Below the pieces are notes generated by a model. That model was not told the DNA's origin and made no database searches. It saw only the letters and a list, made by a program, of their open reading frames with translations. From Iphinoe sp. HA4291-MV1 (GTDB lineage Bacteria; Cyanobacteriota; Cyanobacteriia; Cyanobacteriales; Nostocaceae), in contig JAHHHH010000015.1 in the NCBI GenBank assembly GCA_019359415.1, positions 46,193 through 110,192 on the forward strand: DNA of 64,000 nt, in the 5' to 3' direction. Position 1 is the stretch's first letter. Every line of letters begins with the position of its first letter. A program made the translations under genes and the position numbers. Positions 6,085 to 36,478 of this stretch are shown one piece after another.

Positions 6085-9000
6085 CTACGGTAGTAGAACT
6101 GGCTGGGCTAGTTGCTCAACTAACTCTTTTGCCAGTTGGGAAATACTTGGACCCCCCATGAGTTTCATTGTGGGTATGCTCACACCCAGATCTTTCTCGA
6201 GCCGGTTACTTAGCTCCACTGCCATTAAGGAGTCAAGTCCCAAATTGGTCAGCGGTTTTGATCTGTCCAGCTTGGCAGCAGAAGTTCCCAATACCCGTGC
6301 AACTTGTTCAAGCAGGCGAGATTCCAGCAACTGCAGGCGCTCTGCTGGTTGGGCAGCCATGAGGGCATTGGAGAATGAATCTCCTTCTGGAGCATCGCCT
6401 GCTTCTTGTGATACTGCTTTTTCCCCTGCCAAGTGAGAAAATCGTGGTGATACGCCAGCCGCGTGAAGCTGGGACCACCGCTGCCAGTCCATCGATGCCA
6501 CCGTCGTCTGAACTGCCTCAAGGAGAAGCAATTCTCCCAGCATAGAAAGCGCTTGTTGCGACAAAAGTGGTTTAACTCCAATCCGCCTTAGACGCTCGCC
6601 TACTTCCGCGTCCCGAGCAACGTAACCAACATCGGCAATCACGCCCCAGTTGACGGTTAGGGCTGGAAGTCCCATAGCGCGGCGGTGGTGAGCCAGCGCA
6701 TCCAGAAAAACACTGGCAGCCACATAATTCCCCTGTCCTGGGTTTCCCACAATTGAAGTCAACGAGGAGAAATTGATGAAGAAATCCAGCTGCGTATTCT
6801 GGGTCTGCACGTGTAAGTTCCACGCACCCATGACCTTGGGAGCCATCACTTTAAACAAGCGTTCACGGTTGAGTTGCAGCAGGACACCATCGTCCAAAAC
6901 TAAAGCAGCGTGGATAACACCGCGCAACGGTGGCATTGAGTGACGAATATCAGCCAGGACGCCAGCCACCTGGTTTGCATTGCTCACGTCTGCTTTGGCA
7001 ACTACCACCCTTGCGCCTGCTGACTCCAGAGTTTTTACAGCTTCAGATGCGGCTGGTGAAGCAGCACCGCTGCGTCCCATCAATACTAGGTGTTTAGCAC
7101 CGTTTTTGACCAACCACTTCGCCACTGCTAAACTAAACCCACCCAGTCCGCCAGTAATAAGGTAGGTTCCATAACTATGAAATGTCACTTTTTCCTCAAC
7201 AGCGGGAGCCACCACCATATCTGGGTCTTGCAAGGAGACTACTATCTTGCCGATGTGCTTTGCTTGTGCCATATACCGGAAAGCGGTTTGCACCTTGCTT
7301 ATAGGGAAGACCCGATGGGGCAGTGGGTGAAGAGTTTGCTCCGAAAAGTGTTTCATTAATTCCCGAAATAAATCCCCGGCAAAATCAGGGCGATCATGCC
7401 ACAGTTGGTCTAAGTCCACAGCAAAGAAAGACAAGTTATTGCGAAAAGGTCGCAGACCTAATTTAGTGTTCTGGTCGATATCCCGCTTGCCGATTTCGAT
7501 AAAACGTCCGAATCTTGCCAGCACAGAGATACTCAAAAGTATGGCATCTCCTGCCAAAGAGTTGAGGACGATATCGACTCCTTTGCCGTTGGTGAGTTCC
7601 ATCACTTCCTCTGCAAACGCGGTGGAGCGAGAATCCATGATATGATGGACGCCCAGCGCTTTGAGAAATTCCCGTTTTTCTGGATTGCCTGCAGTGGCAA
7701 AAATCTCTGCGCCTGCTTTTTGAGCCAGTTGGATGGCGGCTAGACCCACACCTCCTGCTGCTGCATGAATGAGAAAGCGCTCGCCCTTACGGATTCGCCC
7801 CAAGTCGTGCAAGGCATAGTAAGCCGTGAGGAAAACGGCAGGAATCGTAGCAGCTTCTTCAAAACTAATATGTGCGGGTTTTTTTACCACCAAGCGGGCA
7901 TCTGCGATCATATGACTGCTAAAACTGTGAGGGGCGCTGGCAATAACTTGGTCACCTATCTCAAACTCTTCAACGCCAGAGCCAATTGCAGTAATAATGC
8001 CAGCACACTCTAAACCAAGCGATCGCCCGGAAAAATTGCCCTCTAAGTTAACATCAGCCAGCAAGTTCATTGCCTTGGCGACATCCTTGAAGTTGAGACC
8101 CGCCGCACAAACTTGGATCTCAACCTCTCCCGATCCAGGTTTGGAGCGGGAGATCGCCCGCAGCGTCAAGTTGTCTAAAATTCCTGGTTTGGAAATTTCC
8201 AAACGGAAGGGTTGAGAAGATGCCTGCTTTTTCTGAACTGTTGCAACATCTTTTAGCGACACCGGCATTAACTTGTGGACGTAGCGCGCTTCACCCCGCA
8301 AGGCGATTTCATCTTCCCCCTCATCTGACCATAACTCTGCTTCTAGAGACTGAATTTCTTCAGGAGAGATGGCGTTGCTGATATCCACTCTTGTACACTG
8401 AAGTTTGGGAAATTCATTATTTATCACCCGACCCAGACCCCACAAGGGAGACTGAGCGACTTCAACTGAGTTGACTGATTCTCCTATGGGCTGTGCTCCT
8501 TGGGTTACCAGTACAAGACGAGGAGAACTTCCCACTCGCTCCAACGCTTGAACCAAGTGCAAAACGCTCAAGGTTCCCAGTGTTTGCGCCTCTTCAAGAG
8601 AAGCAACTGTGGTTTCCTCCGTTGGAGTTATGTCCAGACTCCAGAGGTGAACTATCCCACGACAAGCTGGCAGACTGGTACTCACAACTTCCAGGAGTTG
8701 CTGCATATCTTCTGGATGGGACGGGCGGAGCTGGAACTGGTGGGGAGCGAGGCACTTGAAGGCATCTCCAGGCTCGATAAGAATGGGAATTTCTGAGCGT
8801 TTTTGCAGTCGTTGTGCTAATTGCTGTCCAACCCCACATCTGTCGGCAAAAATCAACCAGCTTCCCTGCTGTTCGGGTTTGGGAGTCACTATTGACGAGA
8901 GTTGAGTTTTTCGCTGAACTTGAGGACCAGTAGCCAGAATCACGGTTTGCAGAGACTCAGAAGCGCTATCTGTATCTGAAATGCCAGTAACTTCAACAAA

Positions 9001-12678: not shown

Positions 12679-13109
12679 GATACAGCAGAAGTTTAGAAAA
12701 ATTTTTTGAACAAAAAAGAACTCACCAAGCCGTTGTCAGAATGGGCTGCGCCCCGCTGCGCTAACAGAATGTTGGCTGGAAACTTCTCTCAAGGGGAGAC
12801 GGCAAAGCCGAACCGGCAGGAGAAGAAATAAGTATGATAAAAGTAAATAAGTATAATTTTGTACATTGTGGATGGTGTATAAAGTGCAGGGCGCAAGCCC
12901 GTAAATGGGAGAAACACCAGACCAAATTTTCAATTTGGTGGTCTGCAATCACCTGAAGGTCTTACTGTCAACTCATTGATTTTGAGTTTTGATTCGGTAA
13001 GTTATTCTTCAATTTGTAATTTATCAAATTATAATTTACCATATAATATTATATTGTTTTTATACTGTTTGACTAAAATGTCAATTCAATTAATTTTGCA
13101 TACTTTTAT
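12679..13109. other. Intergenic region between the divergent PKS genes
   Basis: Must contain the promoter of the minus-strand PKS. It is AT-rich toward 13000-13110. It includes a short palindrome, ACCAAATT/AATTTGGT, near 12921-12942, and fragments resembling interspersed repeats (GCTGCGCCCCGCTGCGCTAAC). No gene recognised. Confidence 0.45.
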
Positions 13110-13316
13110 GCCTAGTCATAGCTGATGTACCGTTGATTTGTGATGATATGTCTTCAGATTTTTTATCTCAACCGATACCAAAGGATCGTTATACATTGAT
13201 AGTTGATGTACGCCATACACAAAAAAGCCTAGGCTCAGCAGATGTAATAGTGGTGTTGCTTCGAGATGATCTTATGCACACAATTCGGTATGGTCTACAT
13301 AGTATGTTATATTAAG
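13110..13316 (+). pseudogene. Fragment of a second SerC-type aminotransferase gene
   Basis: Translates as MSSDFLSQPIPKDRY and VVLLRDDLMHTIRYGLHSML, matching residues of the intact SerC-type gene at 20465-21580 (MSSDFLSQPVPVERY, VVLLRDDLVHTIPSGLHSML), with clear nucleotide similarity over about 200 bp. Similarity starts near GTCATAGCTG and stops near 13316; a short further match (TTACCGCATCCATAT) appears at about 13383. The N- and C-terminal parts are absent and there are frame-damaging changes. It is a relic of a duplicated or rearranged copy. Confidence 0.8.
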
Positions 13317-13414
13317 TAATTGGACAGAAATATTTACACATTACTTTATAGGCTGGATAAGGGTTTCAGGGTCTTAACTACTTACCGCATCCATATCAAA
13401 AGTACGCCAATTTA

Positions 13415-13655
13415 GGCGTTGCATAATAAAGGGATGAATTCCGTGTTTATACTATGCAATTTTTCTACTGTAACTGTATTGGAGTGAGGAAGAATGGTAA
13501 GCGACGAGGTAGGAAAATTACATTTGTGTAAACTGCGAAGCGCTAACGTGCCGCTTTGCTAACGCCAATTCATGGATGTTTATAATCCGCCAAAAAGATA
13601 TTCTGATGAAGTTAAACAAGAATGTTTGAAGTTGTACGTTAAACGAACATAACCG
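13415..13655 (+). pseudogene. IS1-family transposase remnant
   Basis: From the ATG at 13454 the translation CNCIGVRKNGKRRGRK resembles the zinc-finger start of IS1-type InsA proteins. After a frameshift and about 29 bp of extra palindromic sequence it continues RQFMDVYNPPKRYSDEVKQ and ECLKLYV, also IS1-like, then stops. GGCGTTGCATAAT at 13415 could be an IS end. It ends about 20 bp before the PKS start codon, so IS sequence now forms the 5' flank of that gene. Confidence 0.6.
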
Positions 13656-13675
13656 ATATTTTTACTTTACTGAAA

Positions 13676-16600
13676 ATGGATATTGAACCTATTGCAATAA
13701 TTGGTATTGGATGCCGTTTTCCAGGTGCAATGAATCCTGAAGCTTTTTGGCATCTACTCTGCAATCAGCTTGACGCGATCGCTCCTATTCCCTCCGAACG
13801 CCAGCATCTACATTCTTGCTTTCTCCCTGACCCCACTTCATCACAGTCGCAACTTATACAAGGTGGTTTTCTAGAGCAAATTGATCAATTTGACCCGCAA
13901 TTCTTTAATATCGCCCCTCAAGAAGCTGTCAGCATAGATCCTCAACAACGGCTGTTACTGGAAGTCACCTGGGAAGCTCTTGAAGATGCAGGGCTAATTC
14001 CTCAAAAACTCGCAGGAAGCGCAACGGGAGTTTTTGTTGGTGTTGCTGGCTCTGATTACTACGAAATGATGGCAACAGAGCGCACGACAAATGGCTATGC
14101 AGTTGCTGGCAATCTCAGCAGTGTTGTTGCTAACCGTATTTCCTATGTGCTTAACTTGACAGGACCAAGTTTGTCAATTAACACAGCTTGTTCTTCCTCT
14201 CTAGTGGCGGTTCATCTTGCCTGTCAGAGTTTGTATCGGAAAGAATCTAGTTTAGCAATAGCTGCAGGCGTAAATGTCATGCTGTTACCTGAGTTGACAG
14301 CAAGCCTAACAAATGCAGGAATGATCTCGGCTACAGGACGTTGCAGAGCATTTGATGCTCAAGCCGATGGCTTCGTTCGTGGTGAGGGAGTTGGTGTTGT
14401 GGTGCTGAAGCCGCTATCTCAAGCATTGACAGACTCTGATCCCATCTATGCAGTCATCCGGGGTAGTGCAGTCAACCAAGATGGGCGCAGTCATGGACTA
14501 GGTGCTCCTAATCTGCAAGCACAACAGGCAGTACTGCGGCAAGCTTATCAAAATGCTGGAATTTCACCAAGTTTAGTACAGTATGTCGAAGCGCAAGGTA
14601 GTGGAAGTTTGTTAGGGGATGCGATCGAACTTAAAGCCCTGGCAACTGTTTTAGGAAAAAATCGTCTTCCAGGAGATAAATGTCGAATCGGTTCCGTCAA
14701 AACTAACATTGGACATTTAGAAGCAGCCAGTGGCATTGCCGGATTGATTAAAGTGGCGTTGTCACTTAAATATAGACAGATACCGCCAAATTTACATTTT
14801 CAGCAGCCAAATCCGAATGTGGCATTAGATAAACTGCCATTGCAAGTGCAGCAAAACTTGGAGCCTTACAAGAGCAATAGCCCCTGTATTGCAGGTGTGA
14901 GTACGTTCGGCTTTGGCGGTACAAACGTTCATATAGTGATGGAAGCTGCACCCGATTTGGTCAAGGAGTCCTCTGAGATTGAGCGTACCCTACATGTGCT
15001 GACTCTATCTGCCAAAACAGAAACGGCATTGCGCGAGCTAGCCCACCGTTATCACGAGTTTTTAGTTAATCATCCTAATGTATCAATTGCCGATGTTTGT
15101 TTTAGTGCCAATACTGGCAGAACTCACTTTAACCATCGGCTGGCTGTGACTGGGGACTCCACAGCACAAATTGCAGAACGCCTGGAAGCGTTTGCATCGT
15201 CTGGAAAGTCAGCGGGATTAGTGAGTGGTTTTGTCAAGCCCAAGAAAATTCCCAAGATTGGATTTTTGTTTAGTGGCTTGATGAACGGCACACTAGGACT
15301 AGACCGTCAACTGTACGAACTTTCCCCCACCTTCCGCCAAGTTATGGATCGCTGTAATGCGATCGCTCAACCATTGCTCGGAAAGTCTTTGCTTGATATT
15401 CTCTATTCCCCGAATACCTCGGTAAATTCTACCAATAAAATATATACTGATTCAGAATTATTTACGGCAACATTTGCGCTGCAAGTAGCACTTTGCGAAT
15501 TGTGGAAAGCTTGGGGAATTACACCCACAGTCGTTATGGGAACAAGCATAGGAGAGTATGCGGCTGCCTATGTTGCTGGCTTGTTCAGTCTGGAAGACGC
15601 ACTCAAGATGGTAATCTCTGGACAGCAGCATCTGCAATCTGAAAACTCAAAGGGGACAATGGTCGGCGTGCTTGCAGATGAACAGCGAGTAGCGGCTGCA
15701 ATTCAACCGTATGGTGATAAGGTTGCCATCGGTTTCTATGGCGGGTCGCAAATTGTAATTTCCGGTCAGCAAGAGGTAGTTGATGCAGTTGTGGCCGATC
15801 TCAAAGCACAAAAAGTCAAAACTGTTCGCTGGGACACATCTTACGCATATCATTCCCCGCTGATGAAATCGCTGGAGATTGATTTTGCCCAATATAAATC
15901 AGATTATACTCCCTCTCCCCCGCAAATTCCTTTAATTTCTGGTGTTACAGGGCAGCTATCTTCTGATGCCATGACCAAAATAGACTACTGGGTAAGTCTG
16001 ATCCGTGAACCGATGAGATTTGCAACGGGTATGCAAACTATGCATTCGCTTGGAGTTACAGTATTTGTCGAGATTGGGCCAAAATCCAGTTTATTGTCGA
16101 TGGGTATGCGTTGTCTACCGGAAGGAGACGGGACTTGGCTGCCCAGCTTACGTCCGGGGCAATCGGGCGCTCAGCAGTTGTTGTCCAGTTTGGCACAACT
16201 TTATGTTTTAGGAGTACCTGTCAATTGGTCAGGATTTGATCGCGATTATCGGCGCGATCGCCTACGACTACCCACTTATCCTTTCGAGCGACAACACTAT
16301 TGGTTCAGCAGTAGTCGTTCGTCTCCACATCGCAATCTATCCCCGCTACCTCAACGTTCTTTGATTTCTAGCTTACTTGACCGGGGAGATTCGGCGGAAC
16401 AGATTGTTCAGCTTCTTGCCCAAGCCGAATCATTTTTACTAGAGCAAGTGCAACTCTTACCAAAACAAATCACCCGTCAAGATCGACATCACCAGGAAAC
16501 TGGATTCTCCACCGATGAACATGAATCTTTTTTGACCAACCCAACCACAAATGTAGATGTACCCGTCCCTGAAGTTATTGCCCCTGACTCGAATATTGAG

Positions 16601-18277
16601 TTAAGGCGAGTACAACTTGCAACATCCCCAGAAGAACAACAGCAACTGCTTGAAGAATATTTGATAGAACAGATTGCTAAAGTGTTGGGATTGACTCCAT
16701 CCCAGCTAGATGTTGAAGAACCGTTCAATACCTTGGGGTTGGACTCGTTGATGTTAGTTCAACTGGTCAACCGCATTAAAAAAGACTTTGCTTTAGAGTT
16801 GTCAATCGAGGCGTTATTTGAAGACATGAGCCTGATTGATCTGGCTCAACAATTACAAACCCAATTGACCTTGTTTAAAAGTGAATCTGACGATGCTCCC
16901 ATAATGGCTACGAACACAGGGGCTGTTGCTTTGCCTTTATCCTTTGCTCAGGAGTCATTTTGGTCGCAAGTAAAACTAGACCCAAGTAATCCCTTTGCTA
17001 ATCTACCCTTCACCTTGCGATTTACCGGAGAACTTGACATTCCAGCATTAGAACGCAGTTTTAATGAGTTGGTGCATCGTCACGCAGCTTTGCGAACCAC
17101 TTTTGATATTGCCGCAGAACAACCTACTCAAATCATTCATCCGACGATGAATCTGCCTTTGTCGGTGGTGGATTTGCGATCAAGCTCTGAAGCAGAACAG
17201 CAAATAACAGTGCAACAGTTATCCCAACAGGAAGCTCAAGAATCGTTCAATATCGTCCAGGGACCACTTGTGCGAATCACACTGCTCAAGCTCGCGGAAA
17301 ATCAACACATTCTGCTCATTACTGTGCATCACCTGATTACAGATGGCACCTCTATGGTGATCTTTGTTCAGGAATTTACAGCAATCTACCAAGCATTTTC
17401 CCAAGGACAACCCTCGCCCCTTCCAGAATTACCGATGCAGTATGCAGACTTTGTTGTCTGGCAGCGTCAGTGGCTGCAAAAAGATGTACTCACAAAATTA
17501 CAAAGCTACTGGCAGCAAAAACTTGCACCACATTTGGTTGTTCCTGAAATCAAAACAGATCTACCTCGTCCTGCTGTACCAAGATGGAAAGCAGCAATCT
17601 ACCCCTTCCAAATATCTGAAGCGTTATCAGCACAACTCAAAGCACTCAGCAAACAGGAAGGGTGTACTTTATTCATGCTTTTATTAGCAGCTTTACAGAT
17701 ACTAGTACACCATTATACAGGTCAGCGTAACTTCTGTATTGGCACTACCGTTGCCAATCGCAATCGAGCGGAGTTTGAAGCCTTGATTGGTTGCTTTATT
17801 AACCAGATTCCAATTAAAGCCAATTTGGAAGGCAATCCCACATTCCGGCAGGTACTCGCTGTTGTTCGCAAAACCACTTTAGAAGCACATAGTTACAGTG
17901 CTCTTCCCTTGAAACAGATTCTGGAAACTGTACCTCTGTTTAAAACAGATAATGTTCACTCATCTGGTTTACCACTGCTTCTACTTTTCCACAATGAAAT
18001 TCCTTTACTGACTGAGAATGTCAAACTATCAGAACGTCTTTCTCTTCAAGGAGAAAATAGAAAATTCAGGGGAGCAAGACGTGATTTAACTCTGCATATG
18101 GTAGAAGCTCAAAAAGGTATTTGGGGAGAGATGGAATACGATGTTGATCTGTTTTTTGAAAGTACAATTAAAACAATTCTGGAAGATTTGATCTGCTTGT
18201 TACAAGGAATTGCAAACACTCCAGATACTCATATTTCCGAAGGTTTAGGAAAACAATTATGGCTAAATAGCAAATGA
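13676..18277 (+). CDS. Hybrid PKS: KS-AT-ACP-condensation domain
   Basis: A 1533-residue protein. KS (about 1-425) has the nucleophile in NTACSSS and the second histidine in KTNIGHLEAASG. The usual HGTGT motif reads QGSGS, so the first catalytic histidine is Gln. AT (about 515-870) has the nucleophile in GTSIGEY, where GHSxGE is usual, and lacks the GQGSQ loop (FLFSGLMNGT), but YHSPLM is present. The ACP (about 990-1065) has LGLDSLM. The C-terminal region (about 1085-1520) is an NRPS-type condensation domain with HHLITDG intact. No adenylation domain or thioesterase follows. The condensation domain could release the chain onto a free amine or alcohol. No good Shine-Dalgarno; the flank is an IS1 relic. 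It probably leads the plus-strand gene set. Confidence 0.9.
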   Translation: MDIEPIAIIGIGCRFPGAMNPEAFWHLLCNQLDAIAPIPSERQHLHSCFLPDPTSSQSQLIQGGFLEQIDQFDPQFFNIAPQEAVSIDPQQRLLLEVTWEALEDAGLIPQKLAGSATGVFVGVAGSDYYEMMATERTTNGYAVAGNLSSVVANRISYVLNLTGPSLSINTACSSSLVAVHLACQSLYRKESSLAIAAGVNVMLLPELTASLTNAGMISATGRCRAFDAQADGFVRGEGVGVVVLKPLSQALTDSDPIYAVIRGSAVNQDGRSHGLGAPNLQAQQAVLRQAYQNAGISPSLVQYVEAQGSGSLLGDAIELKALATVLGKNRLPGDKCRIGSVKTNIGHLEAASGIAGLIKVALSLKYRQIPPNLHFQQPNPNVALDKLPLQVQQNLEPYKSNSPCIAGVSTFGFGGTNVHIVMEAAPDLVKESSEIERTLHVLTLSAKTETALRELAHRYHEFLVNHPNVSIADVCFSANTGRTHFNHRLAVTGDSTAQIAERLEAFASSGKSAGLVSGFVKPKKIPKIGFLFSGLMNGTLGLDRQLYELSPTFRQVMDRCNAIAQPLLGKSLLDILYSPNTSVNSTNKIYTDSELFTATFALQVALCELWKAWGITPTVVMGTSIGEYAAAYVAGLFSLEDALKMVISGQQHLQSENSKGTMVGVLADEQRVAAAIQPYGDKVAIGFYGGSQIVISGQQEVVDAVVADLKAQKVKTVRWDTSYAYHSPLMKSLEIDFAQYKSDYTPSPPQIPLISGVTGQLSSDAMTKIDYWVSLIREPMRFATGMQTMHSLGVTVFVEIGPKSSLLSMGMRCLPEGDGTWLPSLRPGQSGAQQLLSSLAQLYVLGVPVNWSGFDRDYRRDRLRLPTYPFERQHYWFSSSRSSPHRNLSPLPQRSLISSLLDRGDSAEQIVQLLAQAESFLLEQVQLLPKQITRQDRHHQETGFSTDEHESFLTNPTTNVDVPVPEVIAPDSNIELRRVQLATSPEEQQQLLEEYLIEQIAKVLGLTPSQLDVEEPFNTLGLDSLMLVQLVNRIKKDFALELSIEALFEDMSLIDLAQQLQTQLTLFKSESDDAPIMATNTGAVALPLSFAQESFWSQVKLDPSNPFANLPFTLRFTGELDIPALERSFNELVHRHAALRTTFDIAAEQPTQIIHPTMNLPLSVVDLRSSSEAEQQITVQQLSQQEAQESFNIVQGPLVRITLLKLAENQHILLITVHHLITDGTSMVIFVQEFTAIYQAFSQGQPSPLPELPMQYADFVVWQRQWLQKDVLTKLQSYWQQKLAPHLVVPEIKTDLPRPAVPRWKAAIYPFQISEALSAQLKALSKQEGCTLFMLLLAALQILVHHYTGQRNFCIGTTVANRNRAEFEALIGCFINQIPIKANLEGNPTFRQVLAVVRKTTLEAHSYSALPLKQILETVPLFKTDNVHSSGLPLLLLFHNEIPLLTENVKLSERLSLQGENRKFRGARRDLTLHMVEAQKGIWGEMEYDVDLFFESTIKTILEDLICLLQGIANTPDTHISEGLGKQLWLNSK

Positions 18278-18459
18278 TTCAAAGAAAATTTAGATAGTAT
18301 TAAGTACTGAATACTCAGTTTAAAAAAGTTCTTTGATGAATAACTGAATCCTACTTTTGCAGAACGAAAATGGTTTAATATTAAGGTCGATGGTACAGCA
18401 TTCACTAAAAGTGTTACTGCCAATTTATCAATACACATTCGCGATAGGTTAATATCTAC

Positions 18460-19416
18460 ATGAATTTGAAGCAAGAAATAAAATTGATAACTGGACATCC
18501 ACTCACTGGGGGGGATAAAAATAGCCTCATGACTGTAAGATTTCGTAACATTCTGACCTGGACAGTCTACCCTGGTGTCATGTTGATCGGTCTGATGATT
18601 TATTTTGGGCTGAAAAGTCATGGCATAAACGTATTCCTTAGTAGTTACGTAGCTACAGTCATTGCTGGAGTCGGTCTGATAACTTTTTTTGAACTTGTAC
18701 TTCCTTATCGGAAAGAGTGGTTGCCAAGTAGAAGCGACGTTGGAACTGATTTTATTTTTCTGATGTTGGTACAGGTATTACTCCCGAACCTTCTTTCCAT
18801 TTTATCAATGAGTTGGTTACTAGGATTTATCAAAAACAACAACTGGGACTTAGGTAATTTCTGGCCGCACAACTATCCTATCTGGATACAAATCTTGATT
18901 ATAATGTTTTCTAGTGATTTCTTGAGATATTGGTTACATCGTGCAGCTCATACATGGAGTTTTTTGTGGAGATTTCATGCTGTACATCACTCCGTTCAAA
19001 AATTATATTGGCTTAATGTTGGGAGATTTCATCCCTTAGAAAAAACGCTGCAACTTTTTACCGATACCTTGCCTTTCATTCTTCTTAGCGTATCCAAGGA
19101 AGTACTGGCACTTTATTCTGTTGTCTACTCAATTAAAGCATTTTTCCACCACAGCAATGTAGATGTAAAACTTGGTTGGTTGAATTACATCATAAATGGA
19201 CCTGAGCTACACCGCTGGCATCACTCTAGAACTATTCATGAATCAAACAATAATTACGGAAATCATGTAATAATTTGGGACATTATTTTCGGCACCTACT
19301 TTCTTCCTAAGGATAAAAACGTATCCGAGCTGGGTCTTTTAAATCGCAATTATCCAATGAGTTTTTTAAAACAGATGCAAGCTCCATTTATTCAAGATAT
19401 CGATATAGCTCAATGA
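18460..19416 (+). CDS. Fatty acid hydroxylase / sterol desaturase superfamily, copy 1
   Basis: A 318-residue integral membrane di-iron oxygenase. Three histidine clusters fit the family: HRAAH, HAVHHS and HRWHHS, plus FHHSN. About five hydrophobic segments flank them. Such enzymes hydroxylate or desaturate lipid chains; here the likely substrate is the acyl chain of the neighbouring FAAL/PKS product (inference). It is very similar to the next gene, with whole blocks identical (GLMIYFGLKSHGINVFLSSY), so the pair is a tandem duplication. The start ATG at 18460 lacks a strong ribosome site, and similarity with copy 2 begins only at about residue 20. It follows the PKS gene by about 180 bp. Confidence 0.87.
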   Translation: MNLKQEIKLITGHPLTGGDKNSLMTVRFRNILTWTVYPGVMLIGLMIYFGLKSHGINVFLSSYVATVIAGVGLITFFELVLPYRKEWLPSRSDVGTDFIFLMLVQVLLPNLLSILSMSWLLGFIKNNNWDLGNFWPHNYPIWIQILIIMFSSDFLRYWLHRAAHTWSFLWRFHAVHHSVQKLYWLNVGRFHPLEKTLQLFTDTLPFILLSVSKEVLALYSVVYSIKAFFHHSNVDVKLGWLNYIINGPELHRWHHSRTIHESNNNYGNHVIIWDIIFGTYFLPKDKNVSELGLLNRNYPMSFLKQMQAPFIQDIDIAQ

Positions 19417-19458
19417 CAATTCCTACTCGTCTAAACCTTCCATTACGAAACAGGGTAA

Positions 19459-20394
19459 TTGTTGAATATTTATACTTCAAAAATGGAGAAAAATAGCCTC
19501 GTGAATGTAAGATTTAGTGAAATTTTGACCTGGACAGTTTACCCAGGTGTTATGGCGATCGGTCTGATGATTTATTTTGGGCTGAAAAGTCATGGCATAA
19601 ACGTCTTCCTTAGTAGTTACGTAGCAACAATTATTGCAGGAGTAGGTCTAATAACTTTTTTTGAACTTGTACTTCCTTACCGTAAAGAGTGGTTGCCAAG
19701 TAGAAGCGATGTTGGAACTGATTTACTTTTTATGATATTGGTACAGGTACTACTCCCATACCTTCTTTCCATTTTATCAGTGAGTTTTTTGATCGGCTTT
19801 ATCAACAAGAATCATTGGAACTTAAGTGCTTTCTGGCCGCATAACTATCCCATCTGGATACAAATCTTGATTATGATATTGTCTGGTGATTTTTTCAGAT
19901 ACTGGTTACATCGTGCAGCTCATACATGGATTTGGTTATGGAGATTTCATGCCGTACATCACTCCGTCCACAATTTATATTGGCTTAATCTGGGGAGATT
20001 TCATCCCTTAGATAGAGCGCTGCAACTTTTTTGCGATAGCTTGCCCTTCATTTTTCTTAGTGTATCCAAGGAAGTAGTGGTACTTTACACTGTTATTTAC
20101 TCAATTAAAGGCTTTTTTCAGCACTGTAATGTAGACGTAAAACTTGGTTGGTTGAATTACATCATCAGTGGACCTGAGCTACATCGCTGGCATCACTCCA
20201 TAAAGATTCATGAATCAAACAATAATTATGGAAATTTTACAATAATTTGGGACATTCTTTTCGGCACTTACTTCCTTCCGAAGGAGCGAAAAGTATCCCA
20301 ACTAGGTCTTTTAAATCGCAATTACCCGATGAGTTTTTTGAAACAGATACAAGCTCCGTTTATTAAAGGTATCGATAAAGAGCAATTCTCGTAA
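19459..20394 (+). CDS. Fatty acid hydroxylase / sterol desaturase superfamily, copy 2
   Basis: A tandem paralogue of the preceding gene with the same order of histidine motifs: HRAAH, HAVHHS, HRWHHS. One difference near the third cluster is FQHCN instead of FHHSN. If both copies are active they may act at different chain positions. Membrane topology is like copy 1. The frame opens with TTG at 19459 behind AGGG, or with ATG at 19483 without a ribosome site; similarity to copy 1 starts just after the ATG. The gap from copy 1 is about 40 bp, so co-transcription is likely. Confidence 0.86.
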   Translation: MLNIYTSKMEKNSLVNVRFSEILTWTVYPGVMAIGLMIYFGLKSHGINVFLSSYVATIIAGVGLITFFELVLPYRKEWLPSRSDVGTDLLFMILVQVLLPYLLSILSVSFLIGFINKNHWNLSAFWPHNYPIWIQILIMILSGDFFRYWLHRAAHTWIWLWRFHAVHHSVHNLYWLNLGRFHPLDRALQLFCDSLPFIFLSVSKEVVVLYTVIYSIKGFFQHCNVDVKLGWLNYIISGPELHRWHHSIKIHESNNNYGNFTIIWDILFGTYFLPKERKVSQLGLLNRNYPMSFLKQIQAPFIKGIDKEQFS

Positions 20395-20464
20395 CTAATA
20401 GCTGTAAATTAAACAATAATTACGTCGTACCAACAATTGCCAATTTCTAATCCACAAAACATAA

Positions 20465-21580
20465 ATGGATTTGCAAAATTTGAACAATCCCAACAATCAT
20501 TTAAACTTTTCTGGAGGACCTGGAGCATTACCTGAATCAGTGCTAAATGCTACTCAAACTGCGATTATAAATGTGCCAGAAGTCGGCTTGTCATTGCTAG
20601 GCATCAGTCATCGCTCTGATTGGTTACGCAATGTACTAGATGAAACTGAAGAAAACTTGCGGAATTTACTCTCGATTCCGAAGAATTATCATGTTCTTTT
20701 TTTACAAGGGGGTAGTAGTCTACAGTTTTCAATGATACCCATGAATTTCTTACGTGGGAACAGAAAAGTTGCAGAGTATATTGTATCTGGTTATTGGAGT
20801 ATTAAGTCCGTACCTGAAGCCAGAAAAGAAGGGCAAGTGCAGGTAGTGTGGGATGGAGGAGATAGCAGTTATAAACGATTGCCGACAGCTGAGGAACTTG
20901 TACTTTCATCAGATGCAGCTTATCTACATTATGTCTCGAACGAAACGGTAGAGGGACTACAATTTTCCTATCTACCAGGCATAGCTGGTATACCGTTGAT
21001 TTGCGACATGTCTTCAGATTTTTTATCTCAACCTGTACCAGTTGAGCGTTACGCATTGATATACGCCCATGCACAAAAAAATCTTGGACCAGCAGGTGTA
21101 ACAGTGGTATTACTTCGAGATGATCTTGTTCACACAATTCCGTCTGGTCTACACAGTATGTTAGATTACCGTACCCATATTGTGGGTAAGTCAATTTACA
21201 ATACGCCGCCAGTATTTGCACTATACGTAATAATGTTAGTTACCCGTTGGCTACGGAAAGACATTGGTGGACTTGCTGCAATGGCGAAGATTAACGCAAC
21301 AAAAGCAGCGACTCTCTACAAAGTGCTTGATGAAAGCGGAGGGTTTTATCAAGGTCATGCTGTTCGAGAGTATCGCTCAGTTATGAATGTTGCTTTCCGA
21401 TTAGCTAACCGCGATCTAGAGCGTTTATTTCTCAAAACCGCAGTGGAAAACGGATTTTATGGGTTGGACGGACACCGTTCAATCGGAGGTTTGCGGGCAT
21501 CACTTTACAATGCAGTTACTCAGTCTGGAGTAGAGGCTTTAGCTGGATTTATGCATGACTTCCAGCAACGCTACGGTTAA
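20465..21580 (+). CDS. serC: Phosphoserine-aminotransferase-type PLP enzyme in the biosynthetic cluster
   Basis: A 371-residue class V aminotransferase of the SerC type. Family residues are present: NFSGGPGALP at the N-terminus, SHRS, GGSSLQF for phosphate binding, CDMSSD with the PLP-pyridine Asp, the Schiff-base Lys in AQKNLGPAG, and the C-terminal HRSIGGLRASLYNA with the substrate arginine. Length is normal. SerC converts 3-phosphohydroxypyruvate and glutamate to phosphoserine and 2-oxoglutarate. Its place between lipid hydroxylases and a FAAL suggests a cluster role: supplying serine or phosphoserine, or aminating a chain intermediate. It could also be the strain's housekeeping serC. A decayed fragment of a close copy lies at 13110. 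Confidence 0.88.
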   Translation: MDLQNLNNPNNHLNFSGGPGALPESVLNATQTAIINVPEVGLSLLGISHRSDWLRNVLDETEENLRNLLSIPKNYHVLFLQGGSSLQFSMIPMNFLRGNRKVAEYIVSGYWSIKSVPEARKEGQVQVVWDGGDSSYKRLPTAEELVLSSDAAYLHYVSNETVEGLQFSYLPGIAGIPLICDMSSDFLSQPVPVERYALIYAHAQKNLGPAGVTVVLLRDDLVHTIPSGLHSMLDYRTHIVGKSIYNTPPVFALYVIMLVTRWLRKDIGGLAAMAKINATKAATLYKVLDESGGFYQGHAVREYRSVMNVAFRLANRDLERLFLKTAVENGFYGLDGHRSIGGLRASLYNAVTQSGVEALAGFMHDFQQRYG

Positions 21581-21644
21581 AGCGATTCTATAGTATGCCA
21601 ATTATCACAAAACAACTACTTTAACTCTTTCAAGTACAAATACA

Positions 21645-23771
21645 GTGATCTATCACAATTTATTTTCAGCACATTCTCCACAAGAAGCAACTTTAGTTGA
21701 TTTGTTACGTTATAGGGCGCAACAACAACCAAACCATGTCCCATATACCTTTTTAGTAGATGGAGAAACAGAAAAAGTTAGCTTCACTTATGAAAAATTA
21801 GACCAAAAAGCACGCGCCATTGCGGCATTGCTTCAGAGCATGAAAGCTTTTGAAGAAAGAGTGCTGCTTCTCTACCCGCCCGGACTGGAATTCATTGCTG
21901 CTTTTTTTGGGGGTTTGTATGCGGGTGTAACTGTTGTACCCGTGTATCCACCACGAGGTAAACAGCGGATAACACGCGTACAAACTATTGCAAAAGACGC
22001 ACAAGCAACTTTTGCACTCACCACCTCATCTGTAATGACTAAATTGGGAGAAAGATTCAAAGAAGAACCAGAATTAGCAGCTTTGAAATGTATAATGACT
22101 GATGACATTGCCGAGAATTTAGCATATGATTGGTCTTTTCCTGAGATTACTAACAACTCACTAGCACTTCTCCAGTACACATCTGGTACGACAGGAAACC
22201 CGAAAGGGGTGATGGTGAATCATGACAATCTACTCTATAATTCTGCTTTAATTTATCAGGCTTTTGAGCATACACCTGACAGTCGAGGTGTTATTTGGCT
22301 TCCTCCTTACCACGATATGGGGTTGATTGGTGGAGTCCTGCAGCCTGTATATGGTAATTGCTCAGTTACACTGATGTCGCCAGAGTCTTTCCTACAAAAA
22401 CCTTTTCGCTGGCTAAAAACTATTTCCGACTATCAAGCAACTACCAGTGGTGGACCTAATTTTGCTTATGAGCTGTGTGTTGATAAGATTACTCCCGAAC
22501 AACGCAAACAGCTTGATTTGAGCAGTTGGGAGGTTGCTTTCAATGGTGCTGAACCTGTAAGAGCGGAAACTATTGAGAAGTTTTCAGTAACCTTTGCAGA
22601 TTGTGGCTTTAGAAGAAGTGCTTTTTACCCCTGCTATGGAATGGCAGAAACAACTTTGATTGTGTCTGGAGGTTTGAAAAAAGAGCCACCAGTGATTCGC
22701 TTTGTGCAAGATAAAGCGTTTAAGCAGAATCTGATTGTGACTACTACTAGCGAGTCAGAAGATGCTAGGGCGATTGTCGGTGTTGGTCATAGTAGCTTAG
22801 ACCAAAAAATTGTCATTGTTAACCCAGAATCATTAACTCGCTGTCCAGATGGAAAAATTGGAGAAATTTGGGTTGCAGGGCAGAGTGTGGCTGGTGGCTA
22901 CTGGAAGAAACCCGAAGAGACTCAACAGACATTTAATACCCAATTGCAAGACACAAAAGAAGAACCGTTTCTACGCAGCGGAGATTTAGGATTTTTACTC
23001 AATGGCGAACTATTTATCACAGGTCGCCTCAAAGATATGATGATTATTCGAGGGCAAAATCATTATCCCCAGGATATTGAATTAACAGTCCACAATAGTC
23101 ATCCCGCACTGCGAGCAAATTGTGGGGCAGCATTTTCTGTAGAGATAGAAGGTGTTGAGCAGTTAGTTATTACTCAAGAGATAGAACGTACTTACTTACG
23201 TCAATTGGATGTTGATGAGGTCGTTAAGACTATTCGTCAGGCAGTGTCAGAGCAGCACCAGTTACAAGTATATGCCATTGTGCTACTGAAGACAGCGAGT
23301 ATCCCGAAAACTTCTAGTGGTAAAGTTCAGCGTCACGCTTGTCGAGTTGGGTTTCTGGATAAAAGTTTGGATGTTGTCGGAGATTGGACTGCAAATCTTG
23401 AGCAAACAGACTTACAACAACTTCAAGCAGAAGTAGACGACCTTTGGGAACAAGTACATTCTTCAGATGTTAATTCAGATATTAATAAATTTGAGGCAGA
23501 TCAGGAATCATTCAAGCCAACTTTGACAGAAAAAGAAATCCAAACCTGGCTGATTTCTCATCTCGCCATGTACTTGAAAATACCTCCTGATGAGATAGAT
23601 ATTCAAGAACCTTTTACTGCATATGGTCTAGATTCAGCAGTGGCGGTCAGTATGACAGGTGAATTAGCTCAATTGATTGGCTGTGAACTGGGACTGACTC
23701 TTTTGTGGGAGTACCCCACCATCGAAACCCTAGCGCAGTATTTAGTAGAGGAATATAGCAATCCTATTTGA
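21645..23771 (+). CDS. Fatty acyl-AMP ligase fused to an acyl carrier protein (FAAL-ACP)
   Basis: A 708-residue didomain loading protein. The AMP-forming domain (about 15-575) has the P-loop LLQYTSGTTGNPKGVM, PPYHDMGLIGG, YGMAETT, RSGDLGF and GRLKDMMIIRGQNHYPQDIE, which are FAAL features. Lys in KTSSGKVQRH is the late catalytic lysine. The ACP (about 625-705) carries the phosphopantetheine serine in AYGLDSAVA. FAALs activate a free fatty acid as acyl-adenylate and pass it to an ACP, starting lipopeptide or polyketide assembly. The start is GTG at 21645 and gives the expected N-terminus. The gap from serC is about 60 bp. This gene is the clearest evidence that the cluster product begins with a fatty acid. 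Confidence 0.93.
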   Translation: MIYHNLFSAHSPQEATLVDLLRYRAQQQPNHVPYTFLVDGETEKVSFTYEKLDQKARAIAALLQSMKAFEERVLLLYPPGLEFIAAFFGGLYAGVTVVPVYPPRGKQRITRVQTIAKDAQATFALTTSSVMTKLGERFKEEPELAALKCIMTDDIAENLAYDWSFPEITNNSLALLQYTSGTTGNPKGVMVNHDNLLYNSALIYQAFEHTPDSRGVIWLPPYHDMGLIGGVLQPVYGNCSVTLMSPESFLQKPFRWLKTISDYQATTSGGPNFAYELCVDKITPEQRKQLDLSSWEVAFNGAEPVRAETIEKFSVTFADCGFRRSAFYPCYGMAETTLIVSGGLKKEPPVIRFVQDKAFKQNLIVTTTSESEDARAIVGVGHSSLDQKIVIVNPESLTRCPDGKIGEIWVAGQSVAGGYWKKPEETQQTFNTQLQDTKEEPFLRSGDLGFLLNGELFITGRLKDMMIIRGQNHYPQDIELTVHNSHPALRANCGAAFSVEIEGVEQLVITQEIERTYLRQLDVDEVVKTIRQAVSEQHQLQVYAIVLLKTASIPKTSSGKVQRHACRVGFLDKSLDVVGDWTANLEQTDLQQLQAEVDDLWEQVHSSDVNSDINKFEADQESFKPTLTEKEIQTWLISHLAMYLKIPPDEIDIQEPFTAYGLDSAVAVSMTGELAQLIGCELGLTLLWEYPTIETLAQYLVEEYSNPI

Positions 23772-23943
23772 GACCCGAACACAGGGGACAAGGATGATAA
23801 GGAAAATGTGTTTGTAACTAACTTGGGATTGCTATATCAATGAGATTGTGGATGAATTACTTGATAATATTTAGTAACAAAAGACAAGGTTTCTGTTCGC
23901 AGCCTCAATAATTTCCCGATTACCTTCAAGCAAACAAACCAAA

Positions 23944-24426
23944 ATGTTTTACCAACCTACTGATTTCAAATTTACAGAGAGCCTAGAATTAAACTGGCTG
24001 CTCATCAAAGATGAGTTAAATAGACTGCAACAAGGTAATTCTATGCCTTGGCAAAAAGAGTTTCTTTATAACAAAGGCTGGGATATTCTTAGTTTGTATT
24101 CTTTTGGTAAAAAAATAGAGCATAACTGCCGCTTGTGTCCAGAAACAACAAAATTAGTAGAATCTATTCCTGGAATGACCACGGCGACTTTTTCTTCCCT
24201 TGCACCAGGAACTCACATTGTTCCTCATAAGGGATATATAAACACTGTACTTCGTTGTCATTTGGGTTTAATTGTGCCTGATGACTGTTGGATACGGGTG
24301 GGGCATAAAACGAAAACCTGGGAAGAAGGTAAGTGCTTAGTTTTTGATGATACCTTTGAGCATGAAGTTTGGAATCGCAGCAATACCCCCAGAATAATTT
24401 TATTGATCGACTTTAAAAAAGTCTAA
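23944..24426 (+). CDS. Aspartyl/asparaginyl beta-hydroxylase-like 2OG-Fe(II) oxygenase
   Basis: A 160-residue protein with the core of the Asp/Asn beta-hydroxylase family. SSLAPGTHIVPHKGY carries the first iron histidine in PHKG. NTVLRCHLGL follows, then FDDTFEHEVWNRS with the second histidine. There is no membrane anchor, as is usual for bacterial versions in peptide or lipid clusters. It probably hydroxylates a carrier-bound or free amino acid or acyl unit using 2-oxoglutarate. It lies about 170 bp after the FAAL and 8 bp before the P450 gene, so it should be co-transcribed with the P450. Confidence 0.82.
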   Translation: MFYQPTDFKFTESLELNWLLIKDELNRLQQGNSMPWQKEFLYNKGWDILSLYSFGKKIEHNCRLCPETTKLVESIPGMTTATFSSLAPGTHIVPHKGYINTVLRCHLGLIVPDDCWIRVGHKTKTWEEGKCLVFDDTFEHEVWNRSNTPRIILLIDFKKV

Positions 24427-24434
24427 CTTTTTAT

Positions 24435-25703
24435 ATGAAAGAAGAAGCAATTAGTCCGAAAAACGACCAAACCATAAACTCAACAAAAGGAGTCAACTTC
24501 AATCTTTTCGATCCTAATTTTAACGCTAATCCTTATCCAACTTACCATCGCCTCCGCTCAGAAGATCCGGTACATCGATACTTTGTTGGAGGTGATTGGA
24601 TCGTTACCCGCTATGCCGATGTCAAAGCAGTTTTAAAAAGTGGTTGTGTTCGCACTGATGATAGACCAAAATCAATACAAGAAAGAAACAAATATCTCCA
24701 AGACAAGGAAAAAAATCTAAATACTCTTGCTTTTACCACCAGCCGATTTTTATTTTATATGAACCCACCAGACCATACCAGATTACGTGGGTTGGTGGGT
24801 AAAGGCTTTTCTTCTGTAGTTGTTGAGCGTATGCGTCCCCATATTCAGGAAATTGTGGATGAATTGCTTGACAAAGTTCGACACAAGGGGAGTATGGACA
24901 TTGTTGCCGATCTTGCCAGTCCACTTTCTGTGAATGTGATTAGTAGGCTGTTGGGAATACCAAAAGAAGCTCAACAGCAGCTTCATCAGTGGACTAATGT
25001 TTTGTCCCGAATTTTAGATCCACTGGTGTCACTAGAAGAATATAAAGCGATGAATAAAGCTACAGAAGAGATTCAGGAATATTTACGTACTCTGATTGCC
25101 GAACGAGAAAAAGATCCACAAGCAGACTTGATTAGTAATTTGATTGCAGCTAAAGAGCAAAATGATAGGTTAAGTCAAAAGGAACTATTGGCAATTTGCA
25201 CATTGTTATTTGGGGCAGGTGAAGAAACCACAGGAAATACAATAGGCAATGGAATGCTGGCATTGCTACAACACCCTAACCAAATAGAACAACTCAAAAG
25301 AGAACCAACAAAGATCCAAAGTGCTGTAGAAGAAATAATTCGCTACGATAGTGCAATTCAAATGTTAACCCGTATTGCTACTGATAATTTAGAAATAGGC
25401 AACCGAACAATAAAAGCAGGTGAAAAGATAGTTCTTTGCTTAGGAGCAGCGAACCGAGATCCAAAACAGTTTCCAGAACCCGACGAGTTAAATATTAATC
25501 GAGAACAGAATCAGCACGTTGCTTTTGCTGATAGTATTCATTATTGCTTGGGAGCTGCACTAGCACGCGTGGAAGCTCAAATTGCTATTAACACACTAAT
25601 TCAACAATTTCCTGATTTAAAGTTAGCTTCAAACAAGCTTGAGTGGAAAAAGAGTATAGTCATACGTGGCTTAAAAGCTCTACCTGTAAGTTTTACTGGC
25701 TAA
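24435..25703 (+). CDS. Cytochrome P450, intact copy
   Basis: A 422-residue soluble bacterial P450. The I-helix is FGAGEETTGN, ExxR is in EEIIRYDS, and the heme ligand lies in IHYCLGAALAR. The heme-loop consensus FGxGxHxC is altered to FADSIHYC, with both glycines replaced, which is unusual although the cysteine is present. Early motifs (NPPDHTRLRGLVGKGFSS) are normal. It probably oxidises the cluster product. The start ATG is 8 bp after the previous stop. A paralogue follows 42 bp downstream and shares long blocks, showing tandem duplication. Redox partners are not encoded here. Confidence 0.9.
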   Translation: MKEEAISPKNDQTINSTKGVNFNLFDPNFNANPYPTYHRLRSEDPVHRYFVGGDWIVTRYADVKAVLKSGCVRTDDRPKSIQERNKYLQDKEKNLNTLAFTTSRFLFYMNPPDHTRLRGLVGKGFSSVVVERMRPHIQEIVDELLDKVRHKGSMDIVADLASPLSVNVISRLLGIPKEAQQQLHQWTNVLSRILDPLVSLEEYKAMNKATEEIQEYLRTLIAEREKDPQADLISNLIAAKEQNDRLSQKELLAICTLLFGAGEETTGNTIGNGMLALLQHPNQIEQLKREPTKIQSAVEEIIRYDSAIQMLTRIATDNLEIGNRTIKAGEKIVLCLGAANRDPKQFPEPDELNINREQNQHVAFADSIHYCLGAALARVEAQIAINTLIQQFPDLKLASNKLEWKKSIVIRGLKALPVSFTG

Positions 25704-25745
25704 GTAATTTATATCAATTTTAGATATTTACAGGAGATGTGTGCA

Positions 25746-27190
25746 ATGGAGCAAATTGCTAATACAAATAAGGCTCAAAAATTAGGGATTGCAAAAGCTC
25801 TTAAATTCAATCCTTATGACCCAAAGTTTCAGGCAAATCCCTATCCCGTCTACCACCAACTCCGCTCTGTAGAACCAATACATCAGAGCTTCACGGGTAT
25901 GTGGGTAGTGACTCGCTATGCTGATGCTAAGGCAGTTTTGCGCGACTCTCGCTTTTGTGTTAATAAAATGCAAAAAAATGTTAAACATAAGAGCCATTCT
26001 CTAGAGCAGCGAGATTTCAATACACTTGCACAAGCGATTGATAAATGGTTAATATATTTAGACCCACCTGAACATACTAGGTTGCGAGGGCTAATTAGTA
26101 AAGCTTTTTCTTCTACAAGCATCAAATTTCTGCGTCCCCAAATTCAACAAATCACCGATGAATTGATTAGCAAAGTTCGGCACAAAGGTTTCATGGATGT
26201 TATATCCGATTTTGCTTGCCCATTACCTTGCAATGTCATTGCTGCAATACTAGGGGTACCTCTTGAAGATTGGTTTAAGCTATATCATTGGTCAGATGAA
26301 CTGTCTAATATCCCATATTCCGCACTTCAAAATGTATTATCTTACTTTTCAAGAATAATTTCTAATAATGCTCAAATTATTAAGTATTAATATTGAAAAT
26401 CATTGATAATTCGTGCTCTTTATTTAACCATTGTTAGCCAGATTTTGGAAATCTACGCGTATTACACGATGAAGTGCGGAAAGTGGGTAATATTTTAGAT
26501 CCGCTCAAGTCTCTGGAAGACTATGAGCAGATGAATAAAGTGGCACTAGAATTTACAGATTACTTTAAAAGCTTGATTGCACAACGTCAAAAAAGCCCGC
26601 AACAAGATTTGTTAAGTGCGTTGATTACAGTTAAAGAAGAAGATAACAAGCTAAGTGAAGAAGAAATTATATCTGTCTGTATGTTATTGTTCTTTGCTGG
26701 TGAAGAAACCACAGTGAATCTCATAAGTAACGGTATGCTTGCTCTATTGCGTCACCCACAGCAGATGCAGCAACTCAAGACACAACCAACACTCATCCAA
26801 AGTGCTGTGGAAGAAATGCTACGTTATGATAGCCCAATCCAAATCATTACACGAGTAGCGACTGAAGATGTTGATATAGATGGTATCACTATTCGATTTG
26901 GTGAGAAAGTTCTTGTGATTTTAGGCGCTGCAAATCGCGATCCTGCACAGTTTCCTGATCCAGATCGCTTCGATATTACACGAACTAATAATAGTCACTT
27001 AGCTTTTGTTGATGGTATCCACTATTGTTTGGGTGCAGTATTGGCGCGGATTGAAGCTGAAATTGCCATTAATACACTTGTGCAACAATTACCTGACCTG
27101 AAGCTATCACAAGATAAGCTTGAGTGGCGCAACAAGGTTGGTTCTCGCAGGCTAAAGGCTCTCCCTGTTATTTTTAAGTCATCAATTTAA
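25746..27190 (+). pseudogene. Second cytochrome P450, split by a 176-bp insertion
   Basis: The N-terminal part (ATG 25746 behind AGGAG, to about 26311) reads ANPYPVYHQLRS, DPPEHTRLRGLISKAFSS and HWSDELSNI, then runs into foreign sequence and a stop near 26388. The C-terminal part resumes after 26487 with ILDPLKSLEDYEQMNK, FFAGEETTVN, EEMLRYDS and FVDGIHYCLGAVLAR. Removing the insertion and one copy of the TAATAT duplication restores DELSNILDPLKSLEDY in one frame, aligned with the upstream P450 (SRILDPLVSLEEY). All catalytic motifs survive on the two pieces, so the interruption looks recent. The insertion plus duplication is 182 bp, not a multiple of three. Confidence 0.9.
26312..26487. mobile_element. 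176-bp MITE-like insertion with 18-bp terminal inverted repeats
   Basis: Left end CCCATATTCCGCACTTCA (26312-26329) and right end TGAAGTGCGGAAAGTGGG (26470-26487) are inverted repeats matching at 16 of 18 positions. TAATAT flanks the element on both sides (26306-26311 and 26488-26493) as a target duplication. The interior is AT-rich and has no coding capacity, so it must have been moved by a transposase encoded elsewhere. I cannot name the parent IS family. Confidence 0.88.

Positions 27191-32759: not shown

Positions 32760-36478
<3,719 letters not shown>

Follow-up and report, generated by a model that had tools for sequence, protein, structure and literature searches.

A fatty acid-primed gene cluster of the cyanobacterium Iphinoe sp. 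HA4291-MV1 with a predicted non-elongating KS-AT module and a putative hydroxylated N-acyl amino acid as its product

Cyanobacterial lipopeptide clusters, such as those for puwainaphycin, laxaphycin and microginin, start with the loading of a fatty acid by a fatty acyl-AMP ligase (FAAL) onto an acyl carrier protein (ACP), after which a protein with ketosynthase (KS) and acyltransferase (AT) domains follows (Table 2 of PMC11837247). Ornithine lipids arise through the amidation of an acyl group with a free amino acid and subsequent OlsE- and OlsC-type hydroxylation; OlsH is given as the enzyme shown to make N-acyl-ornithine (PMC12493201), and OlsE as hydroxylating the head groups of ornithine lipids (PMC11631085). 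A third theme is provided by KS domains that are retained in assembly lines despite loss of the His in their HGTGT motif (KS0 domains; PMC4661987 and PMC6855096), and that are termed non-elongating in the latter. Here, we analyze a window of 64,000 nucleotides (contig C26, JAHHHH010000015.1, positions 46193-110192) from the 7.36-Mb genome of Iphinoe sp. HA4291-MV1; all window positions are counted from its first letter. A phycobilisome linker gene (32760-36059) and the relatives of the window mark it as cyanobacterial. Its core consists of eight co-directional genes on the + strand (13676-27190), encoding the polyketide synthase (PKS) PKS2, the hydroxylases FAH1 and FAH2, SerC, FAAL-ACP, an AspH-like enzyme, P450a and P450b. 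Gaps between adjacent genes measure 8-182 bases in the table of open reading frames (ORFs; the gap within the broken P450b gene is left out), and the core looks like a single operon. For the reading that we develop below, the arguments are about evenly balanced: the core would encode a non-elongating relay of PKS and nonribosomal peptide synthetase (NRPS) domains that amidates free serine or phosphoserine and leads to a hydroxylated N-acyl amino acid. The head group, the oxidation sites and the product are what we infer from the DNA.

The best-supported new point is the predicted lack of elongation by the KS and AT domains of PKS2, a KS-AT-ACP protein that ends in a condensation (C) domain. 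Its orthologues are 77-86% identical (tblastn pieces), and the family comprises five modules, found in the window, in Nostoc sp. NMS7, in Nostocales LEGE 12452 and, twice, in Brasilonema angustatum HA4187-MV1. All five KS domains carry Gln in place of the active-site His of HGTGT, the loss that characterizes KS0 domains, and keep the Cys and the second His. In all five AT domains, the His of GHSxG is replaced by Thr, Ile or Ala with the Ser kept, and the GQG motif reads GL(M/S/I); the roles of these motifs are established for the AT family. Both histidines and the Cys are kept, however, in each of the 25 other KS-AT modules that we examined in the same four genomes (30 of 49 matches, five of the 30 being the PKS2 family). 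The AT arginine was not used as evidence, as the alignment is ambiguous at this position. Pairwise dN/dS values for the KS (0.15-0.28), which is under purifying selection, and for the AT (0.23-0.31) are like those of the C domain (0.23-0.27), so that both look like selected domains and not like debris. Since the key histidines of KS and AT are lost throughout the family, PKS2 probably performs no chain extension; its KS is predicted to transfer the acyl group via the retained Cys without condensation, and the protein would thereby pass the FAAL-loaded acyl group on to its C domain. As regards the original prediction, a note made from the DNA letters and a list of ORFs, chain extension by this protein is thus not supported. 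It is in our view unlikely that PKS2 still adds one malonate, by means of a variant AT site or of help in trans, with the C domain releasing a β-ketoacyl amide. The KS Cys, its second His, the AT Ser and the carrier serines would all be in place for such a reaction, and both domains are under purifying selection; the histidine losses, peculiar to this family among the modules examined, and the changed GQG motif speak against it. A second KS0-AT0-ACP module, devoid of a C domain, adjoins a FAAL gene in Brasilonema and is cut by the contig end (L170:13701-16424).

The relatives stem from a scan with FAH1 of one genome per species (84,980 species), which gave at least 592 pattern matches; confirmation succeeded for 571, of which we retained the best 80. 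Among these best 80 of 571, homologues of PKS2 and SerC occur in three loci only, all of them cyanobacterial and 76-84% identical (Table 1). As the gene set stays constant across the relatives although its order varies, the association is not due to chance. Among the matches listed outside the own genome in 388 genomes sampled from the order, no FAH exceeded 37% identity, so that the cluster appears to be rare; the corresponding ceiling for the C domain was 46%. All gene types named in the original prediction were recovered with Pfam and NCBIfam. Its set of eight genes falls into two parts, with the core standing and a reducing PKS (PKS1) dropping out: separation in related strains, which the original prediction had named as grounds for refutation, applies to PKS1 and does not apply to the remaining genes.

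Table 1. Features of the window and of the related loci (positions refer to the window)
Feature	Position	Strand	Basis or remarks
PKS1, AT-DH-MT-ER-KR-ACP, KS reduced to ~75 residues	6085-12678	-	Neighbor outside the conserved core
Residues 173-233 of a second, decayed serC	13118-13309	+	Upstream of PKS2
PKS2, KS(0)-AT(0)-ACP-C, predicted to relay the acyl group without elongation and to act as amide ligase	13676-18277	+	Pfam, orthologues, catalytic residues, dN/dS
KS Cys kept, NTACSSS	14180-14200	+
KS motif EAQGSGS	14588-14608	+	Gln in place of HGTGT His
KS second His kept, NIGHLE	14705-14722	+
AT motif MGTSIGE	15536-15556	+	Thr in place of GHSxG His; GQG motif altered too
C-terminal condensation domain	16913-18250	+	PF00668, 306 bits; HHLITDG at 17327-17347
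FAH1, OlsE-like membrane di-iron hydroxylase	18460-19416	+	PF04116; NF052566, 188 bits vs cut-off 475
FAH2, second copy, 79% identical to FAH1	19459-20394	+	Pfam/NCBIfam, tree
SerC, phosphoserine aminotransferase	20465-21580	+	NF009112 (PRK12462) type, 575.1 bits vs cut-off 563; motifs
FAAL-ACP didomain	21645-23771	+	Carrier motif GLDS
AspH/OlsC-like 2-oxoglutarate hydroxylase, 160 aa	23944-24426	+	Asp_Arg_Hydrox, PF05118, 180 bits
P450a, intact	24435-25703	+
P450b, one gene in two ORFs	25737-27190	+	ORFs 25737-26390 and 26474-27190
MITE-like element in P450b, 176 bp	26312-26487	.	28-nt imperfect terminal inverted repeats
Phycobilisome linker gene	32760-36059
L040, Nostoc sp. NMS7			SerC-PKS2-FAH-FAAL/ACP-P450a-P450b-AspH-DevB-DevC
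L041, Nostocales LEGE 12452			SerC-PKS2-FAH-FAAL/ACP, then contig end
L039, Brasilonema angustatum HA4187-MV1			PKS2-FAH-SerC-HlyD-DevC
L170, Brasilonema HA4187-MV1, second contig			KS-AT-ACP, FAAL/ACP, P450a, P450b, AspH

If PKS2 hands on an unextended acyl group, the question arises which acceptor its C domain serves. This domain is full-length with an intact HHxxxDG motif. Used as a query, the FAAL matches only itself and two ACPs on contig C26 (E<=0.001), and the absence of an adenylation (A) domain claimed earlier thus holds for this contig as far as the query detects such domains; the same query does pick up many A domains on other contigs of the genome. The contigs of Nostoc NMS7 and LEGE 12452 and those stretches of Brasilonema that were read likewise yielded no A domain. 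Hence, on C26 and in these stretches we did not find even one of the modules of an A domain and a peptidyl carrier protein (PCP) of which FAAL-initiated lipopeptide clusters possess at least one. Because HHxxxDG is intact and the contig yielded no A domain, a free soluble acceptor, as already envisaged in the original prediction, is the simplest reading. One might object that the core makes up the first half of a normal lipopeptide pathway, its C domain pairing with an A-PCP protein encoded elsewhere. The genome is indeed rich in NRPS/PKS genes, and the closest KS-AT paralogues of PKS2 (54-55%) lie near FAAL-ACP-P450 sets on contigs C14 and C99. However, there is no A-domain match near the core in any of the stretches just named, and such a pathway would have no need for SerC; we consider this explanation improbable.

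SerC retains its catalytic motifs (QKNLGPAG, SHR, SNET, HRSIGGLRAS and YNTPP) and its synteny with the gene of the C domain holds at all four loci, which supports the proposed connection between the two. Given this constant company, O-phosphoserine or serine is our favored acceptor, and a serine head group would be a fair conjecture. Besides the remnant of a second copy, the protein has no other match in its own genome. This remnant occupies the position of serC in Nostoc NMS7 and LEGE 12452, and the gene order of the window, in which serC follows FAH as it does in Brasilonema, could therefore be derived. Only 12 of the 388 genomes of the order, the own genome included, contain a SerC match (E<=0.001; one of them very weak), so that SerC is hardly the ordinary serine gene of this order. 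Eight loci were read among the 11 other SerC-positive genomes of the order, and in three cases the contig or its end provided no more than 4.5-10 kb; no such cluster surrounds SerC in these eight, and in one (L143) NRPS-type domains end about 3 kb away. In the phylum sample, SerC proteins with 46-54% identity are present in six other genomes (seven of 386 genomes if the own one is counted; E<=1e-100). We also considered that SerC might act on a β-keto acyl group; this was ruled out since the motifs of a phosphoserine transaminase are kept and a β-keto group is not expected.

A possible, albeit doubtful, alternative is that SerC merely raises the supply of serine or vitamin B6 and that another amine or an alcohol is the acceptor, giving a different acyl amide or an ester. 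Phosphohydroxythreonine is, by the NCBIfam name, a SerC substrate as well, and C domains are reportedly able to form esters with soluble acceptors, as in enacyloxin biosynthesis. Yet a general supply function fits poorly with the 376 genomes of the order in which SerC has no match, with its conserved synteny with the C domain, and with the extra, decayed copy in the window. Searches of the plasmid collection with the proteins gave only matches below 60%. The best for SerC (56%; Paraburkholderia sp. FT54, L151:13709-16074) adjoins a gene for a RimK-family ligase, a further hint of a SerC enzyme serving an amide ligase.

A second line of evidence for an amino acid-containing lipid comes from FAH1 and FAH2. 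Their sole NCBIfam match is OlsE, whose cut-off of 475 bits (NF052566) they miss, FAH2 with 194 bits. In a midpoint-rooted FastTree phylogeny of 111 sequences (the window pair, the best 80 of the FAH1 scan and 29 from the order), the five FAHs of the cyanobacterial clusters fall within a clade of 30 members with a support of 1.0. Directly downstream of the FAH gene, 23 of the 25 other clade members possess a GH3-family and an MR_MLE gene, with matches starting within about 0.5 kb of FAH; of the two remaining members, one has a partial GH3 match and the other sits on a contig that ends 41 bases after FAH. None of the 52 non-clade loci, some of which have short flanks, contains a GH3 or MR_MLE gene (E<=1e-6); both counts concern the best 80 of the 571 matches. 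Two GH3 proteins that we tested match nothing but OlsH in NCBIfam (75 and 65 bits; cut-off 620). Since the clade carries OlsH-like GH3 genes and the FAHs match OlsE, this hydroxylase lineage appears, by analogy, to act on N-acyl amino acids, and the C domain would stand in for the GH3 enzyme in the cyanobacterial cluster. The FAH-GH3-MR_MLE operon itself (L042-L061, L064, L068 and L098, e.g., L047:10001-13648) occurs in Nitrospira, Nitrospinaceae, deltaproteobacteria, Bacteroidetes, Alphaproteobacteria and a Fimbriimonas metagenome-assembled genome. Separate from the core and widely spread, it looks like another aminolipid pathway, one for N-acyl amino acids with a racemase-like step; nothing on it was found in the titles and abstract beginnings of the open-licence literature.

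FAAL, carrier protein and KS/C machinery, the components of FAAL-initiated PKS/NRPS systems, are all present, and priming by the FAAL-ACP, proposed at the outset, gained support from Pfam and NCBIfam. P450a resembles PksS (299 bits) and BioI-type P450s (276 bits), and BioI acts on acyl-ACP. FAAL-ACP adjoins a P450a-like gene at two more places in the genome, a recurrent pairing that makes an action of P450a on the ACP-bound acyl group plausible. The AspH-like enzyme shares 86-87% identity with its counterparts in Nostoc NMS7 and Brasilonema; it stays below the cut-offs for OlsC (NF052565; 134 vs 450 bits) and LpxO (NF033391; 95 vs 500 bits). A relative with 66% identity (ORF of 121 residues) is encoded beside NRPS-like genes on a plasmid of Nostoc UHCC 0926; it is H1, one of the two short matches (H1 and H2) that the near search of the plasmid collection had given. 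Another one, 63% identical, lies between genes for a LanM lanthipeptide synthetase and a GNAT protein in Brasilonema angustatum (L176:3975-4610). Considering these neighbors, the AspH-like enzyme may by analogy act on the amino acid part. In Nostoc NMS7, the core is followed by genes for DevB (361 bits; cut-off 129) and DevC (455 bits; cut-off 290); the Brasilonema DevC passes its cut-off as well, and its HlyD-type partner was scanned by Pfam only. The LEGE 12452 contig ends before this position. Pumps of the DevBC type are known for heterocyst glycolipids.

These data lend themselves to the following model. The FAAL would adenylate a fatty acid and load it onto its own ACP, which is established chemistry for this family, and P450a may oxidize the ACP-bound acyl group. 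The KS of PKS2, judged by its residues, would then shift the acyl group, with no C2 extension, onto the ACP that follows in PKS2 itself; the AT has probably lost its function in malonyl loading, leaving this ACP free for the acyl group. Subsequently, the C domain would condense the acyl group with a free amino acid supplied by SerC, either O-phosphoserine or, after dephosphorylation, serine. The FAH pair and the OlsC/AspH-like enzyme, going by their family context, may hydroxylate the head group, the acyl chain or both. A DevBC-type exporter, which follows the core in two relatives and is not beside the cluster in the window genome, might export the product. More tentatively, and with less than even confidence, we propose that KS0-AT0-ACP-C serves as a dedicated acyl-amide ligase for an N-acyl-O-phosphoserine or N-acyl-serine aminolipid, hydroxylated by enzymes of the FAH-GH3 operon type and exported by DevBC, as a carrier protein-based route alongside OlsBA, OlsF and GH3/OlsH.

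Several observations weigh against the model. The Gln that replaces the KS His might leave some activity, and Brasilonema possesses a second KS-AT-ACP copy. SerC is no proof of the head group: relatives exist in the six other genomes of the phylum sample, SerC enzymes also serve a substrate of the B6 pathway, and serine supply alone would explain the gene. The analogy to aminolipid pathways is distant, as FAH, AspH and the GH3 proteins all miss the OlsE, OlsC and OlsH cut-offs, and the LanM and NRPS-like neighbors of AspH relatives suggest peptidyl substrates. In the LEGE 12452 assembly there is no AspH match, and its FAH is shorter. Finally, the AspH gene has a dN/dS of 0.61 in the comparison with Brasilonema, the exception to gene-wise values of otherwise 0.13-0.41.

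P450b is interrupted by 182 bp, consisting of an element of 176 bp that resembles a miniature inverted-repeat transposable element (MITE) and of a 6-bp direct repeat, TAATAT, which flanks it at 26306-26311 and 26488-26493. In its own genome the element has 15 matches, itself included, with 67-100% identity; the match H2 on a Fischerella plasmid is likewise this element (query range 26308-26492 of the window). Of the P450s named initially, P450a is intact, whereas the second consists of two ORFs that belong to one split gene. Because of this interruption, the product of the window strain is probably short of one oxidation. The insertion, the PKS without KS, the serC remnant and the missing DevBC pair, whose closest DevC relative (76% identical) is encoded on contig C30, could be taken to indicate that this strain carries the locus as a decaying relic. 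We doubt this: the core ORFs other than P450b are open at full length, their dN/dS values are low apart from that of AspH, and P450b is intact in two relatives.

PKS1 is probably a bystander outside the pathway. Its KS ends after about 75 residues and picks up again near the KS-AT linker; compared with the paralogues on contigs C30 and C48 (66-68% identical over the remaining sequence), which carry DTACSS(S/A), EAHGTG and NIGH, about 350 KS residues with the Cys-His-His triad of a complete reducing type I PKS are missing. The loss preserves the reading frame, the remainder of the ORF being open, and might stem from a short-read assembly error. PKS1 is present in none of the relatives' stretches read; PKS1-like genes of Brasilonema are 40% identical and lie on a separate contig (C83). 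With its KS gone and no orthologue beside the core in relatives, membership of PKS1, and with it the reducing, C-methylating PKS of the original prediction, was rejected; the methyl-branched product that this enzyme had suggested loses its support. The C30 paralogue (L174, C30:56000-75900) has an intact KS and a terminal thioester reductase domain, and PKS1 may once have resembled it. Genes for a sulfotransferase and a DevBC-like pair come after this paralogue, and the set may be a sulfated lipid cluster. The other window ORFs included in the comparison showed no match to the C30 or C48 stretch. Near PKS1, a flavin amine oxidase gene (1422-2969) has no match in the C30, C48, L170, L171 and L176 stretches compared.

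In the titles and abstract beginnings of the open-licence literature, we found no described cluster with the gene set of the core. It differs from the FAAL-initiated lipopeptide clusters in that no A domain is present on its contig, KS and AT are predicted to be dead for elongation, and SerC and two lipid hydroxylases are included; the terms P450, hydroxylase and aminotransferase do not occur in the main text of the review on such clusters (PMC11837247). The FAHs of the core nest in the clade tied to OlsH-like GH3 genes, which connects it to the ornithine lipid pathways. In contrast to these, the amidating enzyme would be an NRPS C domain that works on a carrier protein and not GH3, OlsB or OlsF, a serine-type head group is expected instead of ornithine, and no O-acyltransferase was recognized in the core. 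PKS2 departs from described KS0 domains in that its arrangement is of the cis-AT type, the AT is disabled as well, and a C domain comes directly after the ACP. For enacyloxin, a C domain reportedly releases the polyketide onto a soluble acceptor; the core shares the C domain with a free acceptor and the lack of an A domain, whereas an amino acid amide and an acyl group that is not elongated are expected here. If our model is true, the rule of cluster mining that KS plus AT equals one further C2 unit would lead to a wrong product prediction, a lipopeptide starter module could turn into a synthase for amino acid lipids, and a carrier protein-based aminolipid route would be added, with a compact gene set for heterologous expression. 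Collectively, the core is most likely a variant of the FAAL-initiated hybrid clusters that functions like an aminolipid pathway.

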